DNA of 64,000 bases from Enemella evansiae. Its GTDB lineage: Bacteria; Pseudomonadota; Alphaproteobacteria; Rhodobacterales; Rhodobacteraceae. The position numbers and the translations under genes are program-made. The stretch's first letter is position 1; every line of letters begins with the position of its first letter. Under the pieces are notes generated by a model. That model saw only the letters and a list, made by a program, of their open reading frames with translations, was not told the DNA's origin and searched no databases. Where the stretch lies: NCBI GenBank assembly GCA_017255395.1, contig JAFKDC010000019.1, positions 1 through 64,000 on the forward strand. Direction: 5' to 3'. Below are positions 35,330 through 42,237 of the stretch, piece after piece.

Positions 35330-36640
35330 CTACCGCTTGCGGCCCGCCAGCAGCGGCAGCTTGGCGATCTTGTCGTTCAGCGTGCGCCGTGGCAGGCCGA
35401 GGATGCGGGCCGCCGCCTCTGTGTTGCCGTTGCACTGGTCCAGCACGCGGGCGATTTCCTGCGCCTCGAAATCCGCGACGAGGTCGCGCAGGGTCTGGCC
35501 GGTTCCACCCGTCAAACCGGCGGCCCGGCGCGTGTCCTTGCCCTTCAGGCCCAGCACGTGCCGGTCCGCCATGATCTTCAGCTCGTGCGCATTGCCGGGC
35601 CAGTGGTGCGCCTGAAGCGCCTTGCGGTCCTCGAAGGTGACCGCCGGCGCCTCTCGTCCGTGCCGCGCCGCCGCCGCCGACAGGAATTTCGCGAAGATCA
35701 GCGGCACGTCCGCGGGCACCTGCCGAAGGCTGGGCAGCGCAATCTCGTACCCGGCAATGCGGTAATACAGGTCTTCGCGAAAGCTGCCCTCGCCGATGAC
35801 GTCGCGCAGCGGTCGCGAGGCAGAGGCCACGACCCGGAACGCCAGCGCCCGCCCATCGCCTTCCGCCTGCCGGGTCTGGAGAATGCGCAGAAGCTTGGGT
35901 TGCAGCGTCGCGGACAGCGCGTCGATCTGGTCCAGGAACAGCGTGCCGCCGTCGGCGGCGGCGATCAGGCCGGGGTCCGCGCCCTCTGCCGCGCCGCGCG
36001 CATCGCCGAACAGCACCGCCTCGGCGCCGCTGTCGGGCAGGGTCGCGCAATTGACGACGACGAAGGGCCCCTCGGGGCGCGGGCCGCGATGGTGCAGCAG
36101 CCGCGCCGCCAGTTCCTTGCCGGTGCCGGTCTCGCCGGTCACGACCACGTCGATGTCCAGCGGGGCAATCTCGGCGAGGGTTGCGCGCAGGGCCGCCATG
36201 GTGCGGCTTTCGCCGATGAATTCGCCCTGCGCATCCAGCCGGTCCTGCAGGCGCGCCACCTCGGCCTTCAGGCGCCCGGTCTTCAGCGCCCGTTCGATGA
36301 CCATCAGGAGGTGCCCGGCGTCATAGGGCTTTTCAAGGAAATCCTCGGCGCCCTGCTGCATCGCGCGCACCGCCTGCGCCACGTCGCCGTGGCCGGTCAG
36401 CAGCACCACCGGCACGTCAAAGCCCGCCTCGGCCAGCGCCGTCAGCAGCCCGATCCCGTCCATCCCCGGCATCCGCAGGTCGGTCAGCACAAGATCCGGG
36501 GGCGCGGCCACGGCGGCCTCCAGCGCGGCCCGCGCCTCGGCGAAGCCCTCGGTGCGGTGACCCACGGCGCCGATCAGGTCGCACAGACCTTCAAGGTGGT
36601 CGGGGTCGTCGTCGACGACGAAGAGGCGCGCGCCGCTCAT
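35330..36640 (-). CDS. DctD-like response regulator, defective AAA+ motifs
   Basis: A 436-residue NtrC-family regulator: receiver with phospho-acceptor Asp54 (LVLTDLRMPGMDG) and Lys104, AAA+ domain with Walker A GETGTGK (169-175), and a Fis-type helix-turn-helix (NTEAAARILGLPRRTLNDKI). Two essential AAA+ motifs are changed: the sigma-54 contact loop GAFTGA reads GAAEGA (216-221), and Walker B reads LFLDQID (Asp237-Gln238) instead of Asp-Glu. It probably cannot open sigma-54 promoters in the normal way and may act as a simple repressor or activator. It follows the DctB-like kinase by 121 bases and likely regulates the TRAP transporter upstream. Confidence 0.88.
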   Translation of the reverse strand: MSGARLFVVDDDPDHLEGLCDLIGAVGHRTEGFAEARAALEAAVAAPPDLVLTDLRMPGMDGIGLLTALAEAGFDVPVVLLTGHGDVAQAVRAMQQGAEDFLEKPYDAGHLLMVIERALKTGRLKAEVARLQDRLDAQGEFIGESRTMAALRATLAEIAPLDIDVVVTGETGTGKELAARLLHHRGPRPEGPFVVVNCATLPDSGAEAVLFGDARGAAEGADPGLIAAADGGTLFLDQIDALSATLQPKLLRILQTRQAEGDGRALAFRVVASASRPLRDVIGEGSFREDLYYRIAGYEIALPSLRQVPADVPLIFAKFLSAAAARHGREAPAVTFEDRKALQAHHWPGNAHELKIMADRHVLGLKGKDTRRAAGLTGGTGQTLRDLVADFEAQEIARVLDQCNGNTEAAARILGLPRRTLNDKIAKLPLLAGRKR

Positions 36641-36761: not shown

Positions 36762-38534
36762 TCATTCCGCCGCCACCCGTTCACCGGCCATGGTGTCGAA
36801 GGTCAGCACCGCCCGCGTACCGCCGCCGGGGGCCTCGGACAGGGCCAGCCGCCCGCCGAATTCCTCGACGATGGTGCGCGAGATCGACAGGCCCAGACCA
36901 AGGCTCTCGCCGGTCTGCTTGGTGCTGAAGAAAGGTTCCGTCACCCGCGCCATCAGCGACGAGGGGATGCCCGGACCGTTGTCCACCACCGCGATTTGCA
37001 CCGAACCGCCGCTTGCCCGGCGCTCGACCCGCACGGCGGGCGCGGGGCGGTCCGCCACGGCGTCCAGCGCGTTCATCAGCAGGTTCACCAGAACCTGTTC
37101 CAGCCGCACCTCGCCCGCAAGGATCACCGGCCCGGGGCCCTGCGGCGCAAAGCCGATCGTCACACCGCAATCGCCCGCGCGCGGCCCGACCAGTTCCAGC
37201 GCCGAGCGCACCACCGTGTCCACCGCCACGGGCCGCCGCTCGCCGCCCTCCTTGCGCGAGAAGCTCTTGAGGTGGCGGATCGTCCGCAGCATCCGGCGGA
37301 TGTGGCTGCGCGCCTTCTCGATCCGCGAGACGGCGAAGTCGTCCGTCACCTTGCCCGACAACAGGGTGGCGGCCAGCGTCGCCTCCATCGCGGCCAGCGG
37401 CTGGCTGATCTCGTGCACGATGGCCGCCGACATGCGCCCCAGCGCCGCCATCTTCTCGGAATGCACAAGCGCGTCCTGCGTGGCGCGCAGGTCGTCCTCT
37501 GTGCGCTGGCGCTCCTCGATCTCGCGGGCCAGCGCCTGCGTCCGCTCGGCCACCCGCGCCTCGAGCAGGGCGCCCTGCCGCAGCCGCATGTCCACCAGCT
37601 GCCGCCGCTGCCACCATGTCTGCGCCAGCGCCCCCAGCGCCAGCGCCGAGATCAGCACCGCCGCCGCCACGCCCCATGCCAGCCGCAGCGCCGACACCAA
37701 CGACCCGCTGCCCAGCAGCACCCAGCCGTCGCCGGGCAGCGCCTGCCGCCTCAGCAGGCGGTCTTCGCCACCCGTCGTCATCACCGCCTGCCCCGCCTCG
37801 CTCAGCAGCGGCGCGCGGTCGGCCACCGGGATCGCCGCAAAGACCCGATGCGCGGCGATGGCGGCCCTTGCCGTCTCGTCCAGAGAGACAAGCGGGCGGT
37901 AGACCCAACGCGGCTGGCCCGACAGAATGATGACGCCGAAGCCGTCCGCGACGGTCAGCATCTCGCCCGCGTCGACCCATGTCTCTTGCAGCGGGCGCAG
38001 GTCGATCTTGACCACGGCCACCACCGGGCGCCCCGCGACCGTGGCCCGGGAGGCCATGAAATACCCCGGTTCGCCGGTCGTCACGCCGACAGCGTAGAAC
38101 CGCCCGGAGCCGCCCGCCATGGCATCGGTGAAATAGGGGCGGAAGGCGTAGTTCTCGCCGACGAAGCTGGTGTCGTCGCGCCAGTTGCTGGATGCGATGG
38201 CGGTGCCGGTCTCGTCCAGCAGGTACAGCTCGTCCGCCCCGGACTGCCGGGCCGCCACTTCCAGCGCGCGGTTGGCGGTCGCGATGCGCCCGGCGCTTTG
38301 TGGATAGGTCACGGCGGCGCGGATGCGCGGATCTTCCAGCGCCACCAGCGGCAGGTAGCTGTAGCGCTCTATTTCTGCCTCCAGCGTGCGCGCGGTCAGC
38401 ACAAGCGCGCGGTCGACCCGCTCTGCCAGCCCGGCCTTGGCGACCTGCCACGCGGCCAGCCCCGCCCCGCCCGCCACCAGCACGGCGGCAAGAACGAGGC
38501 ATGGCCAGAAGGCCCGGTGGCGGCGCGCGGTCAT
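36762..38534 (-). CDS. DctB-like sensor histidine kinase
   Basis: A 590-residue membrane kinase. Helix 1 (residues 10-28) and helix 2 (near 290-312) flank a periplasmic dCache sensor with SSNWRDDTSFVGENYAFRPYF, typical of C4-dicarboxylate-type sensors. A coiled coil follows, then the H-box IVHEISQPLAAMEA, N-box LLMNALDAVAD, G1 box DNGPGIP and G2 SLGLGLSIS. It should phosphorylate the neighbouring response regulator in reply to a transported substrate. ATG 38534 lies 4 bases beyond the stop of the DUF1850 gene, so it belongs to the transporter operon. Confidence 0.9.
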   Translation of the reverse strand: MTARRHRAFWPCLVLAAVLVAGGAGLAAWQVAKAGLAERVDRALVLTARTLEAEIERYSYLPLVALEDPRIRAAVTYPQSAGRIATANRALEVAARQSGADELYLLDETGTAIASSNWRDDTSFVGENYAFRPYFTDAMAGGSGRFYAVGVTTGEPGYFMASRATVAGRPVVAVVKIDLRPLQETWVDAGEMLTVADGFGVIILSGQPRWVYRPLVSLDETARAAIAAHRVFAAIPVADRAPLLSEAGQAVMTTGGEDRLLRRQALPGDGWVLLGSGSLVSALRLAWGVAAAVLISALALGALAQTWWQRRQLVDMRLRQGALLEARVAERTQALAREIEERQRTEDDLRATQDALVHSEKMAALGRMSAAIVHEISQPLAAMEATLAATLLSGKVTDDFAVSRIEKARSHIRRMLRTIRHLKSFSRKEGGERRPVAVDTVVRSALELVGPRAGDCGVTIGFAPQGPGPVILAGEVRLEQVLVNLLMNALDAVADRPAPAVRVERRASGGSVQIAVVDNGPGIPSSLMARVTEPFFSTKQTGESLGLGLSISRTIVEEFGGRLALSEAPGGGTRAVLTFDTMAGERVAAE

Positions 38535-38538
38535 GGCC

Positions 38539-38931
38539 CTACTCTGCCACGGCTGTCGCCGCTGCGGAACTCCCCGCGTGCGCCGCGCAGGGCGCCAGCC
38601 GCAGGGGCGCGGCGCCCTCGGTGCCCAGCACCCGGCAGCTGCCCCCGGCGCAAAGCGTCCAGCCCGAGACTGTCGCGCCCGAGGCCGCCAGCACAAGCGC
38701 GGGCACGGTCACCCGGCCCTCCCAGACCCACCAGCCGTCCTTGAGGCGCGCGCCCTCGCCCGGCTCCATCCCGGCGCCCGATCCCTGCACCGCGCCCTCG
38801 ACCAGCCGCAGGGCGTTTTCCTCGACGGCCCATGTCTCGCGCCATGTCACCCGCTCGACCGAATGGGTCCAGGACAGGGTGAACTGCGGCGCCATGGCAA
38901 TCGCCACGGCGCCGAGGCAGAGCGCGCTCAT
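38539..38931 (-). CDS. DUF1850 protein of TAXI-TRAP operon
   Basis: A 130-residue protein. The N-terminal hydrophobic segment (MSALCLGAVAIAMA) is a likely signal or anchor, followed by FTLSWTHSVERVTWRETWAVE, the signature of DUF1850 (HS-E--W-E-W). Two Cys (TLCAGGSCR) could form a disulfide. These proteins occur almost only beside fused TRAP permeases of the TAXI type; their role is unknown, possibly assembly or coupling. Its ATG overlaps the permease stop (ATGA at 38928-38931). Confidence 0.9.
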   Translation of the reverse strand: MSALCLGAVAIAMAPQFTLSWTHSVERVTWRETWAVEENALRLVEGAVQGSGAGMEPGEGARLKDGWWVWEGRVTVPALVLAASGATVSGWTLCAGGSCRVLGTEGAAPLRLAPCAAHAGSSAAATAVAE

Positions 38932-41003
38932 GCCCGCGCCACCCGCTTTCCGGTCAGCCAGATCAGCCCCGCCGTGGCTGCGGCCAGCGCAAAGCCGATC
39001 TCGTCCGTCATCGGCACCGAGGCGATCAGGGTGAAGGCCGCGCCCATGGCCAGCAGCCGCAGCGGCCAGCCCAGCGGATGCCCGCACCAGCCGATCACCG
39101 CCACGCCCCAGAGCGCGATGGACACGACCGTCTTGAACACCACGTAGGCCACCGCCGGCCAGAAGCCGATGGCCTCGGCCAAGGGCCCGCCCGGTTGCAG
39201 CATCAGCACCGGCGTGTAGACCGCCATGAAGGGGATGACGAAGCCCGCCGCCGCGACCTTGATCGCCTCCATCGAGATGCGCAGCCCGTTCGCCTTGGCG
39301 ATGGGGGCGGCGGCAAAGCAGGCCAGCGCCACCGGCGGCGTCAGGTCCGCGAGGATGCCGAAGTAGAAGACGAACATGTGGCTGACGATCAGCGGCACGC
39401 CGAGGTCCAGCAGCGCCGGTCCCGCGATCGACGAGGTGATGATGTAGTTGGGGATCGTCGGGATCCCCATGCCGAGGAAGATGCAGGTGACCATGGTCAG
39501 CACCAGCGACAGGAAGAGGTTCTCCTGCCCGATGGCGACGATGAACTGGCCGAAGGTATTGGCCGCCCCGGTCAGCGTCATGGTCCCGATGATCACACCC
39601 ACCAGCGCGCAGGCCACACCCACCGGCAGCGCCGTGCGCGCGCCCTCTGCCAGACTGTCGCGGATCAGGCCCAGCGTCTGCCGCCCGCCCTTGGACAGGG
39701 CGCACCAGATCAGCAGCGCCGCGATGGCGGCGAACAGCACATCGGTCCCGAATTGAAGGAAGGCCGCCGTGACGAGGCCGAGCCCGATCCAGAAGACCGT
39801 CCGGAACACCATCGAGGGCAGGCCCAGCACGATGGTCCCGCCAAGGATCAAGAGCACCGTCAGGCCAAGACCCACGGTCCCGGCAAAAAGCGGCGTGTAG
39901 CCCCCGAACAGCAGGTAGATCAGCACCCCCAGCGGCACCAGCAGCATCCAGCCCTTGCGGATCGCGCCCAGCGGCGAGGGCAAGGTGTCCTTCGGCAGGC
40001 CGCTCAGCGCGTGCTTGCCCGCTTCCAGGTGCACGATCCAGAAGGCCGAGGCGAAGTAGAGGATCGCGGGCACCAGCGCCGCCTTGACGACCTCGACATA
40101 GGGCACGTCCAGCGTCTCGGCCATGATGAAGGCAACGGCGCCCATCACCGGGGGCATGATCTGCCCGCCCATCGAGGCGGTGCTCTCGACGCCGCCCGCA
40201 AAGGTCGCGCGGTAGCCAAAGCGCTTCATCAGCGGAATGGTGAACTGCCCGGTGGTGACGACATTGGCCACGCCCGAGCCGGAAATCGTGCCCATCAGCC
40301 CGGAAGAGACGACCGAGACCTTGGCCGCGCCGCCCTGCCGGTGCCCGAAGAGGCCCATGGAGACATCGGTGAACAGCTGGATCATCCCGGCGCGTTCGAG
40401 GAAGGAGCCGAAGAGGATGAAGAGGAAGATATAGGTCGAGGAGACATAGATCGGGATGCCGTAGATGCCCTCGGTCCCGTAGGCCATGTGGTCGATCACC
40501 TGGCTGAAATCGTAGCCGCGATGGTCCAGCGGATAGGGCAGATGCTGCCCGAAGAGACAATACAGCAGGAAGGCCCCCGCGATGATCGGCAGCGCGATGC
40601 CCATCATCCAGTAGGCGGCGGCGAAGACCGTCACCAGCGCCACAACACCCATGACGATATCCAGATCCGTGGGCCGCCCGGCGCGCAGGATCAGGTCCTT
40701 GTATTCGACCCACTGGTAGACCGCCACCAGCACCGCGGCGACCGCCAGCCCCCATGCCAGCGCCTTGACCGCAGGCCCGCGCGGTCGCGCGTATGCCATA
40801 AGCGGAAAGGTCAGCGCCATCAGAAACCCGACGTGGATGGCGCGCACGATCTGGCTGGCCATGTCGATCAGATGCGCGGCGGTGGCGATCTGAAACAGCG
40901 AGAAGACCACGGCCATCCAGAACAGGAACCGGCCCAGAAGCGCCTCGGGAAAACGCACACCATGGCTTTCCGCCGGTTCCGGCGGCGTGGCAATATCGGA
41001 CAT
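38928..41003 (-). CDS. TRAP transporter fused permease (TAXI type)
   Basis: A 691-residue integral membrane protein fusing the small (DctQ-like) and large (DctM-like) TRAP subunits, with about 17-18 hydrophobic helices. The family region around SGSGVANVVTTGQFTIPLMK and MGGQIMPPVMGAVAF is clear. It moves substrate in symport with ions using the TAXI binding protein encoded upstream; the substrate is unknown, though a dicarboxylate is suggested by the DctB-like sensor. AAGGAGA precedes the ATG at 41003. Confidence 0.94.
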   Translation of the reverse strand: MSDIATPPEPAESHGVRFPEALLGRFLFWMAVVFSLFQIATAAHLIDMASQIVRAIHVGFLMALTFPLMAYARPRGPAVKALAWGLAVAAVLVAVYQWVEYKDLILRAGRPTDLDIVMGVVALVTVFAAAYWMMGIALPIIAGAFLLYCLFGQHLPYPLDHRGYDFSQVIDHMAYGTEGIYGIPIYVSSTYIFLFILFGSFLERAGMIQLFTDVSMGLFGHRQGGAAKVSVVSSGLMGTISGSGVANVVTTGQFTIPLMKRFGYRATFAGGVESTASMGGQIMPPVMGAVAFIMAETLDVPYVEVVKAALVPAILYFASAFWIVHLEAGKHALSGLPKDTLPSPLGAIRKGWMLLVPLGVLIYLLFGGYTPLFAGTVGLGLTVLLILGGTIVLGLPSMVFRTVFWIGLGLVTAAFLQFGTDVLFAAIAALLIWCALSKGGRQTLGLIRDSLAEGARTALPVGVACALVGVIIGTMTLTGAANTFGQFIVAIGQENLFLSLVLTMVTCIFLGMGIPTIPNYIITSSIAGPALLDLGVPLIVSHMFVFYFGILADLTPPVALACFAAAPIAKANGLRISMEAIKVAAAGFVIPFMAVYTPVLMLQPGGPLAEAIGFWPAVAYVVFKTVVSIALWGVAVIGWCGHPLGWPLRLLAMGAAFTLIASVPMTDEIGFALAAATAGLIWLTGKRVARA

Positions 41004-41069: not shown

Positions 41070-42026
41070 TCAGTCGATCAGCCCCTGCTCCTTGTAGAAG
41101 CGCTCGGCGCCCGGGTGCAGCGGGATCGGCATGCCGTCCAGCGCGCCCTCCAGCGTGATCTGCGCCGCCGCCTGATGCGAGGAGACCAGCGTCTCGAGGT
41201 TCTCGAAGAGCTGCTTGGTCATCTCGTAGGCCAGCTCGTCCGAGACGTCCGAATGCGTGATCAGGTAGTTCGAGATCGCCACCGTCGGCACGTCCGCATC
41301 CTGCCCGTCATAGGTGCCCGCCGGGATCACCGCCGCCTGGTAGGGCGCGCCCAGCGTCTCGGCGATGCTGGCCGGGATTTCCAGCACGGTGATGTCCACC
41401 GAGGTCGAGAGGTCGCGGATCGAGGCCACGCCCAGCCCCGCCGACTGCAGCGTCGCGTCAAGCTGGCGGTTCTTCATCAGTTCCACCGACTCGGCGAAGG
41501 GCAGGTATTCCGTCTTGCCGAGGTCGTCGTAGGACATCCCCGCCGCGCCCATGATCGCGCGCGCGTTCAGTTCCGTCCCCGAGGCGGGCGCGCCCACCGA
41601 CACCGCCTTGCCCGGCAGGTCGTTCAGCGAGGTCGCACCGGCTTCGGCCAGCGCCACGAGCTGCACGTAGTTCGGGTAGATCGCCGCGATCCCGCGCAGC
41701 TTGTCCAGCTTCTTGGGGAAGCCCGCCTCGGCATTGCCTTCCCAGGCCGCCGCGACGCTGTCGCCCAGCGAGAAGGCGATCTCGCCCCGGCCGTCCTGCA
41801 GCAGGTTGAGGTTCTCGACAGAGGCCTTGGTGGATTGCACCTGCGTGCGCACCTTGTCGATGTTCTCGGCGTAGATGTTCGACAGCCCGACGCCCAGCGG
41901 ATAGTAGACGCCCGAGGTGCCGCCGGTCAGCACGTTGACGAAGTTCTGCGCCTGCGCGCCGGTTGCGCCAAGGGCCACGACGGATGCCAGCAGAGCGCCG
42001 CGCAGGGCGGTGTTGAAATGGATCAT
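41070..42026 (-). CDS. TAXI family TRAP substrate-binding protein
   Basis: A 318-residue periplasmic receptor. The signal peptide is residues 1-26 (cleavage after GAQAQ region). The TAXI signatures are VLTGGTSGVYYPLGVGLS at the mature N-terminus and VQSTKASVENLNLLQDG. It captures substrate for the fused TRAP permease downstream. GGGAGG lies 7 bases before ATG 42026, so the 75 upstream codons are rejected. It is the first gene of the operon; the 210-base gap to folA holds divergent promoters. Confidence 0.93.
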   Translation of the reverse strand: MIHFNTALRGALLASVVALGATGAQAQNFVNVLTGGTSGVYYPLGVGLSNIYAENIDKVRTQVQSTKASVENLNLLQDGRGEIAFSLGDSVAAAWEGNAEAGFPKKLDKLRGIAAIYPNYVQLVALAEAGATSLNDLPGKAVSVGAPASGTELNARAIMGAAGMSYDDLGKTEYLPFAESVELMKNRQLDATLQSAGLGVASIRDLSTSVDITVLEIPASIAETLGAPYQAAVIPAGTYDGQDADVPTVAISNYLITHSDVSDELAYEMTKQLFENLETLVSSHQAAAQITLEGALDGMPIPLHPGAERFYKEQGLID

Positions 42027-42237
42027 GATATCCTCCCGTTGAGTGATCCGCCCCCTCCCGGGGCAATCGCCGCCATGCAAAGCGCGGCGCGGGCGGTTGC
42101 GCAAAGACAACCCGCCGGGGCGGCGAAATCGCCGGGCAATTGATTGCCACGAGCCGGGCAACACCTTGCGCGGCGCCTGCGTGACAAGGCGGAACGGGGC
42201 GGCTAAGCCTGTGCGTACCATTCTGCCGGAGGCCCCC

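Follow-up and report, generated by a model that had tools for sequence, protein, structure and literature searches.

The NtrC/DctD-type response regulator P0001, encoded by the last gene of a TAXI-TRAP transport operon, has probably departed from the sigma-54 system and become a non-hydrolysing, operator-binding protein that serves a sigma-70-type promoter. Five properties of the sequences compared point this way: motif losses in the protein, a kept ATP pocket and helix-turn-helix (HTH), a sigma-54 gene (rpoN) undetected in the host genome, a conserved operator, and an absent -24/-12 element. In the mechanism that we propose, the neighbouring histidine kinase presumably phosphorylates D54, and phosphorylated P0001 would bind two GGCA-N6-TGCC palindromes lying 22 bp apart on one face of the DNA. 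It would thereby control the TAXI-TRAP-DUF1850-kinase-regulator operon, most likely by activation rather than repression, from a promoter that uses the housekeeping sigma factor. ATP binding by the AAA+ domain would persist in support of assembly, hydrolysis and the loop that contacts sigma-54 having been lost. Activators of sigma-54 work by ATP-driven remodelling and those of sigma-70 by recruitment, which are different physics. A switch between the two is difficult to follow, since orthologous operons that show the states before and after it are seldom available. In the present case, one operon occurs in both regimes together with its regulator and operator sequence, so the loop, operator spacing, promoter, and catalytic Glu can each be swapped and tested, and both regimes and their intermediates are found in culturable alphaproteobacteria.

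The P0001 gene lies in the window, the whole 64,000-nt stretch of Enemella evansiae DNA that was analysed, and its open reading frame has an ATG start and encodes 436 amino acids. Pfam matches to Response_reg (residues 7 to 115), Sigma54_activat (142 to 300), AAA_lid_14 (309 to 363), and HTH_8 (388 to 428) all exceed their cut-offs and follow the REC, AAA+, and Fis-type HTH order of NtrC-family response regulators. A sequence-only reading of the window had described a GAAEGA loop and an Asp-Gln Walker B alongside an intact receiver Asp, Walker A, and Fis-type HTH, and all of these observations were borne out. The loop occupies residues 216 to 221 (LFGDAR-GAAEGA-DPG), the Walker B stretch is GGTLFLDQ (D237-Q238), the receiver Asp is D54 within LTDLRMPG, and Walker A is GETGTGKE (residues 169 to 176). 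Both the GAFTGA loop and the Walker B Asp-Glu that mark sigma-54-dependent bacterial enhancer-binding proteins are therefore missing. A third change, missed by that reading, is in sensor II, which is GNAHEL (H352) versus GNVREL. The same-genus orthologue (98% amino acid identity) has SAPEGA, DQ, and GNAHEL, and the nine aligned clade members share the Walker B Gln or His and H352; hence, the changes are not due to chance or sequencing error.

The description "DctD-like" holds only loosely, since the solved DctD receiver is one among several matches, the NCBIfam search returned no family over its cut-off among the best 25 of 107 rows, and the linked transporter is of the TAXI type. An AlphaFold model built from nine sequences (mean pLDDT, 79.5; pTM, 0.52) keeps the AAA+ fold, with confidence under 50 at loop residues 216 to 220. 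The nearest solved structures are Brucella NtrX, NtrC4, NtrC1, LuxO, and VpsR, and the nearest AAA+ domain structures are an NtrC1 Walker B mutant and PspF E108Q. With its loop lost and its fold and ATP pocket kept, P0001 would, by sequence and model, belong among the GAFTGA-less NtrC-family sigma-70 regulators. It closes a same-strand run formed by a TAXI solute-binding protein, a fused TRAP permease, a DUF1850 protein, a histidine kinase, and the regulator; the TAXI-TRAP identity of the neighbours, also part of the sequence-only reading, is confirmed by two NCBIfam families (Table 1). The match to a Cache domain in the kinase falls below the cut-off. The DUF1850 gene sits between the permease and kinase genes, and DUF1850 is also found in the operon of the annotated relatives L225, L227, L229, L230, and L236.

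Table 1. Features of the TAXI-TRAP operon and its regulator (window coordinates)
Feature	Position	Strand	Basis and remarks
Operator palindrome 1, CGCAAGGTGTTGCC	42157..42170	minus	Tandem scan; 22 bp upstream of palindrome 2
Operator palindrome 2, GGCAATCAATTGCC	42135..42148	minus	Tandem scan; resembles GG-N10-GC of -24/-12
CTTTG box, candidate part of -35 element (weak)	42102..42106	minus	Hexamer scan; 28 nt after second palindrome
TAXI solute-binding protein (TIGR02122), first operon gene	41070..42026	minus	NCBIfam over cut-off; start 42026
Fused TRAP permease (TIGR02123)	38928..41003	minus	NCBIfam over cut-off; start either 41003 or 41024
DUF1850 protein	38539..38931	minus	Pfam
Sensor histidine kinase, presumed P0001 partner	36762..38534	minus	HisKA and HATPase_c; start 38534 inferred from ORF
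P0001 response regulator: REC, AAA+ (degenerate sigma-54 interaction domain), Fis-type HTH	35330..36640	minus	ORF, Pfam, orthologue alignment
L1 loop GAAEGA replacing GAFTGA, residues 216-221	35978..35995	minus	Sequence, model (low model confidence)
Walker B Asp237-Gln238, catalytic Glu replaced	35927..35932	minus	Sequence, orthologue alignment
Altered sensor II stretch WPGNAHEL, residues 347-354	35579..35602	minus	Sequence; His352 in 9/9 aligned orthologues

The host genome (4.83 Mb, 93 contigs, 100% complete) was negative with both RpoN domain models searched (PF04552 and PF04963), and the controls (E. coli, B. subtilis, Caulobacter, and Bacteroides) were positive as expected. By this search rpoN is very likely absent, short of proof because the assembly is a draft of 93 contigs. 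Fourteen Sigma54_activat matches in the host correspond to nine distinct NtrC-family proteins, none with GAFTGA, once three matches whose reading frames looked Clp-like or MoxR-like were set aside. In a family survey of 295 genomes from 294 genera, 101 had an RpoN domain match at E values up to 0.001; leaving out nine weak PF04552 matches (eight under the cut-off and one of 41 residues), 92 carried a convincing domain. The strict DNA pattern FG[HY]xxGAFTG was present in 55 of the 295, and 53 of these were RpoN positive, so canonical activators track RpoN closely (Fisher P = 1e-30, uncorrected for relatedness). The two RpoN-negative genomes with the pattern are 76% and 73% complete, and 39 RpoN-positive genomes have no match to it. 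We also compiled a table of 98 DctD-like proteins, 94 from family genomes and named relatives and four paralogues from the host genome. GAFTGA or NAFTGA occurs in only 3, all from RpoN-positive genomes; the other loops are altered near full length in 47 (many GAFPGA) and short in 48. Loop loss as a mere consequence of rpoN loss was considered and is too simple, given that 38 of the 41 regulators from RpoN-positive genomes in this table also lack GAFTGA. A sigma-54-less rhodobacterial genome that still carries a GAFTGA-less protein, that of Jannaschia sp. CCS1, was described in 2011 (PMC3162934).

The putative operator (positions 42135 to 42170) consists of twin GGCA-N6-TGCC palindromes that precede the TAXI start by approximately 110 to 145 nt; palindrome 1 of the window has one imperfect arm (CGCA). 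Twin palindromes exactly 22 bp apart were found upstream of TAXI in 12 orthologous loci, where the summed best tandem score was 165 at 22 bp versus 122 to 139 at 30 other spacings (14 to 44). Because the consensus had been drawn from these 12 loci, it was tested on nine further sister-clade loci outside the consensus. They scored 118, compared with a mean of 90.9 and a maximum of 98 over 300 shuffle sets, and other spacings reached at most 104. The same pairs occur in five further plasmid loci. The 22-bp pair was the single best-scoring tandem in 11/12 and 7/9 loci, and the best at 22-bp spacing in 5/5; in L192, L211, and L212, the palindromes are weak or not the sole best score, and the site was placed by position, not by best score alone. 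The gene upstream of the operon varies among loci (a dihydrofolate reductase gene stands there in the window and the same-genus relative alone), which implies that the palindromes travel with the operon. In the host genome, the window's own site was the one match at ≤1 mismatch of 16. The conserved tandem thus lends sequence support to the earlier proposal that P0001 regulates its own TRAP operon. At ≤2 mismatches there were ten host matches, versus 3 for a reversed control; two of them (G000:C13:148784-148819 and C4:192860-192895) each lie ~3 kb or less from another NtrC-family gene, which could be chance. The loci L216, L218, L219, and L230, whose regulators are a subgroup with GVFAHD-like loops beside a different TAXI-TRAP set (TAXI about 40% identical), carry the same 22-bp twin palindromes.

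An orthologous operon in sigma-54 form was found on Rhizobiaceae plasmids, with TAXI 68 to 73% and the regulator 42 to 45% identical over local matches; of 245 plasmid records with a relative, 15 were fetched, plus one from another search. Seven of these operons (Sinorhizobium medicae, S. sojae, Ensifer adhaerens, Ciceribacter, Allorhizobium, Shinella, and Agrobacterium salinitolerans) encode a regulator with GAFTGA and Asp-Glu. They have the same palindromes at a spacing of 31 or 32 bp, and in 7/7 a strong -24/-12 element, TGGCC[CT]-N5-TTGC[TA], follows at a distance of 65 to 66 nt (measured from where palindrome 2 begins), scoring 12.5 to 14.0. By contrast, all 26 altered-loop loci (10 of the window's clade and 16 GAFPGA-type or similar) have the 22-bp spacing, and in 26/26, no -24/-12 score after the operator exceeded 12.0 anywhere or 9.0 at the offset seen in GAFTGA operons (Mann-Whitney P = 5e-5, uncorrected for relatedness). 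Two loci whose contig ends before the TAXI start (L214 and L217), five in which the upstream TAXI orthologue is absent or only a 22% relative (L220 to L224), one with a split regulator gene and an upstream region like that of L227 (L237), and three that have no TAXI (L238 to L240) were left out of these counts.

The sequence-only reading had named a functional -24/-12 promoter of the TAXI-TRAP operon, dependent on this protein and RpoN, as the observation that would overturn it, and had proposed a search upstream of position 42026; no -24/-12 element is present in the window sequence after the operator, where the best score was 10.0 versus 12.5 to 14.0 in the GAFTGA loci. A -24/-12 match at positions 42134 to 42149, TGGCAATCAATTGCCC, was rejected as the operator palindrome itself, as it has a partner 22 bp away and the same pair recurs in other loci. 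A scan for sigma-70 hexamers in 12 loci yielded nothing convincing (the best window pairs match 6/12 positions), and a candidate [CT]TTTG box is found 24 to 28 nt after the second palindrome in 6/9 clade loci. A tree built from 48 proteins groups the seven GAFTGA regulators of rhizobia in one clade (support, 100), next to which stands a 28-member clade (100) with the altered regulators; therefore, the promoter contrast, though perfect, may reflect a single historical switch. Rhizobia and Agrobacterium carry rpoN. Since the 26 altered-loop loci include an Agrobacterium tumefaciens plasmid, promoter type seems to be tied to the loop and not to the host. The proposed conversion to a sigma-54-independent regulator has thus gained sequence support beyond the two motifs, namely, the undetected RpoN, the lack of a -24/-12 element after the operator, and its constancy in the GAFTGA orthologous operons. 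The GAFPGA-type operons of L227 (Agrobacterium plasmid) and L229 (Gemmobacter) group together (100), their hosts belong to different orders, and an IS630 element lies near the L227 copy, which suggests transfer. In L237 (7136-8795, Rhizobium oryzihabitans plasmid), the annotation divides the regulator gene into two overlapping pieces and the kinase gene likewise into two; the control genes look broken or mis-sequenced.

Of ~150 matches listed, 30 were obtained as loci and 60 more were fetched. In the tree that goes with the table of DctD-like proteins, P0001 falls in a clade of nine (SH-aLRT, 99) in which Walker B is DQ in seven members and DH in two, the catalytic Glu is present in none, His replaces the sensor II Arg in 9/9, and the loop is degraded or deleted in 9/9, differently in each species. 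Walker A GETGTGKE, N197, D237, R288/D290/R294 (the RxDxxxR arginine finger motif, so named in PMC3419264), and the receiver D54 are invariant in all nine, and the HTH is invariant or nearly so. This residue pattern indicates that the ATP pocket is kept and that hydrolysis and the sigma-54 contact have probably been lost. A tenth member, on a Pseudosulfitobacter plasmid, has DQ and GNAHQL. The sister clade of 14 keeps Asp-Glu and has mostly GAFPGA loops. GAFTGA is taken to be the older state, given its presence in distant relatives (three RpoN-positive outgroup rows and three other plasmid relatives) and general knowledge of the family.

We consider it somewhat more likely than not that this one orthologous operon preserves a fixed-order path from a sigma-54 activator to a sigma-70 regulator, ending in a natural ATP-trap protein. 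In the first step, the loop Thr would have been lost (GAFPGA), the -24/-12 promoter replaced, and the twin operator tightened by about one helical turn, from 31 to 32 bp to 22 bp, with the ATPase residues still intact. In a later step, within the window's clade, the loop would have been deleted and the catalytic Glu replaced by Gln or His, leaving bound ATP with only a structural role. Action at sigma-70 promoters by a GAFTGA-less protein was itself already known; the interesting part is the graded series within one operon, through which the conversion can be traced stepwise.

Among the other explanations weighed, the most serious, though unlikely, is that P0001 acts as a repressor (or anti-activator) on a sigma-70 promoter of the TRAP operon. 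Stripped of sigma contact and ATP hydrolysis, P0001 would remain a plain DNA-binding response regulator, and GAFTGA-less relatives can repress, as PMC10274813 reports for Caulobacter NtrC at hvyA and sciP. However, the distance of the twin palindromes from the TAXI start is more usual for activators, they cover no evident promoter, and in the rhizobial sigma-54-type operon they have activator geometry. A P0001 that acts at sigma-70 promoters with other residues carrying on ATP hydrolysis, the arrangement proposed for Caulobacter NtrC, is improbable. P0001 keeps Walker A, D237, N197, and the RxDxxxR finger motif, and Walker A and Walker B mutants of Caulobacter NtrC are reported to fail to grow in defined medium (PMC10274813), but Gln or His stands in place of the catalytic Glu in 10/10 clade members. 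In PspF, the ATPase Vmax is 39.5 per min and falls to 0.07 per min with the E108Q change, about 1/500 of the original (PMC3419264).

Decay into a non-functional regulator would explain why the loop region appears unconstrained and varies within one genus (GAAEGA and SAPEGA), yet we consider it very improbable. The dN/dS ratio is far below 1 in REC, AAA+, and HTH alike (AAA+ dN 0.009 and dS 0.151 in the comparison with the same-genus species; 0.171 and 0.675 for Roseivivax isoporae), and by these substitution rates the AAA+ domain is under purifying selection. Moreover, Walker A, the arginine fingers, and the HTH are conserved across the nine orthologues, and the operator persists beside differing upstream genes. 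More improbable still is a residual sigma-54 link through a noncanonical loop, with an rpoN gene that either escaped the assembly or comes from a plasmid, like that of the sister species. In the same-genus genome G002, a separate 531-kb contig does encode an RpoN domain (124.8 bits), but that rpoN has a GAFTGA activator of its own no more than 20 kb away, and the G002 orthologue of P0001 has SAPEGA and DQ. Furthermore, both RpoN models were negative in a 100% complete host, and the operator is followed by no -24/-12 element. The G002 rpoN (L190, contig C5, 262000-281900) lies near frames that, by eye from their sequence starts, resemble a soluble diiron monooxygenase cluster, and the only GAFTGA pattern match of G002 is at the site of an AcoR-like protein (L190); this region looks like an acquired module carrying its own sigma factor.

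By analogy, our preferred reading of P0001 as a sigma-70 regulator most likely has it working like Rhodobacter capsulatus NtrC, that is, phosphorylated, ATP bound, and with sigma-70 polymerase. That protein, an NtrC-type response regulator without GAFTGA, is reported to use sigma-70 and to depend on ATP being bound, not hydrolysed (PMC10274813). Compared with R. capsulatus NtrC, known here by description and not by sequence, P0001 additionally lacks the catalytic Glu (DQ) and the Arg of sensor II, and it differs in its TAXI-TRAP operon, its GGCA-N6-TGCC operator, and an orthologous operon known in sigma-54 form. Caulobacter NtrC likewise has no GAFTGA and regulates sigma-70-type promoters; however, it needs its conserved Walker B for function, and the Caulobacter genome additionally has activators of sigma-54-dependent genes that carry GAFTGA (PMC10274813). 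GAFTGA loss alone thus does not imply dispensable hydrolysis. VpsR of Vibrio cholerae and HupR of R. capsulatus are family members with defective GAFTGA, HupR being sigma-70 dependent and VpsR argued not to be sigma-54 dependent (PMC3162934), but they have other targets, and the V. cholerae regulator is reported not to need ATP (PMC10274813). PspF E108Q (4qnr, ATP bound), which has the same Glu-to-Gln change as P0001, and the NtrC1 mutant (3m0e) are laboratory AAA+ forms with a disabled Walker B, engineered in sigma-54 activators. A further counterpart is the rhizobial TAXI-TRAP regulator (Sinorhizobium medicae, Ciceribacter, Shinella, and others), with an orthologous operon and the same palindromes but with GAFTGA and DE intact, sites 31 to 32 bp apart, and a -24/-12 element. 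Loss of GAFTGA as a mark of sigma-70 use and the preference for Thr-to-Pro replacement were described in 2011 (PMC3162934). In a literature search with most subscription papers outside its reach, nothing was found on the present operon, its operator, or a natural DQ/DH clade.

A public record annotates a member of the P0001 clade as a "sigma-54 dependent transcriptional regulator," which is contradicted by the present sequence evidence, and the same automatic annotation should be doubted for a large part of the Rhodobacteraceae proteins of this type. A separate DctD-like clade (L034, L035, L036, and L040), three of whose members come from RpoN-positive genomes, shows other Walker B losses (GE, DG, NE, and AG) and, in L040, a Lys-to-Arg change in Walker A; judged from these residues, it is a second, independent ATPase decay.
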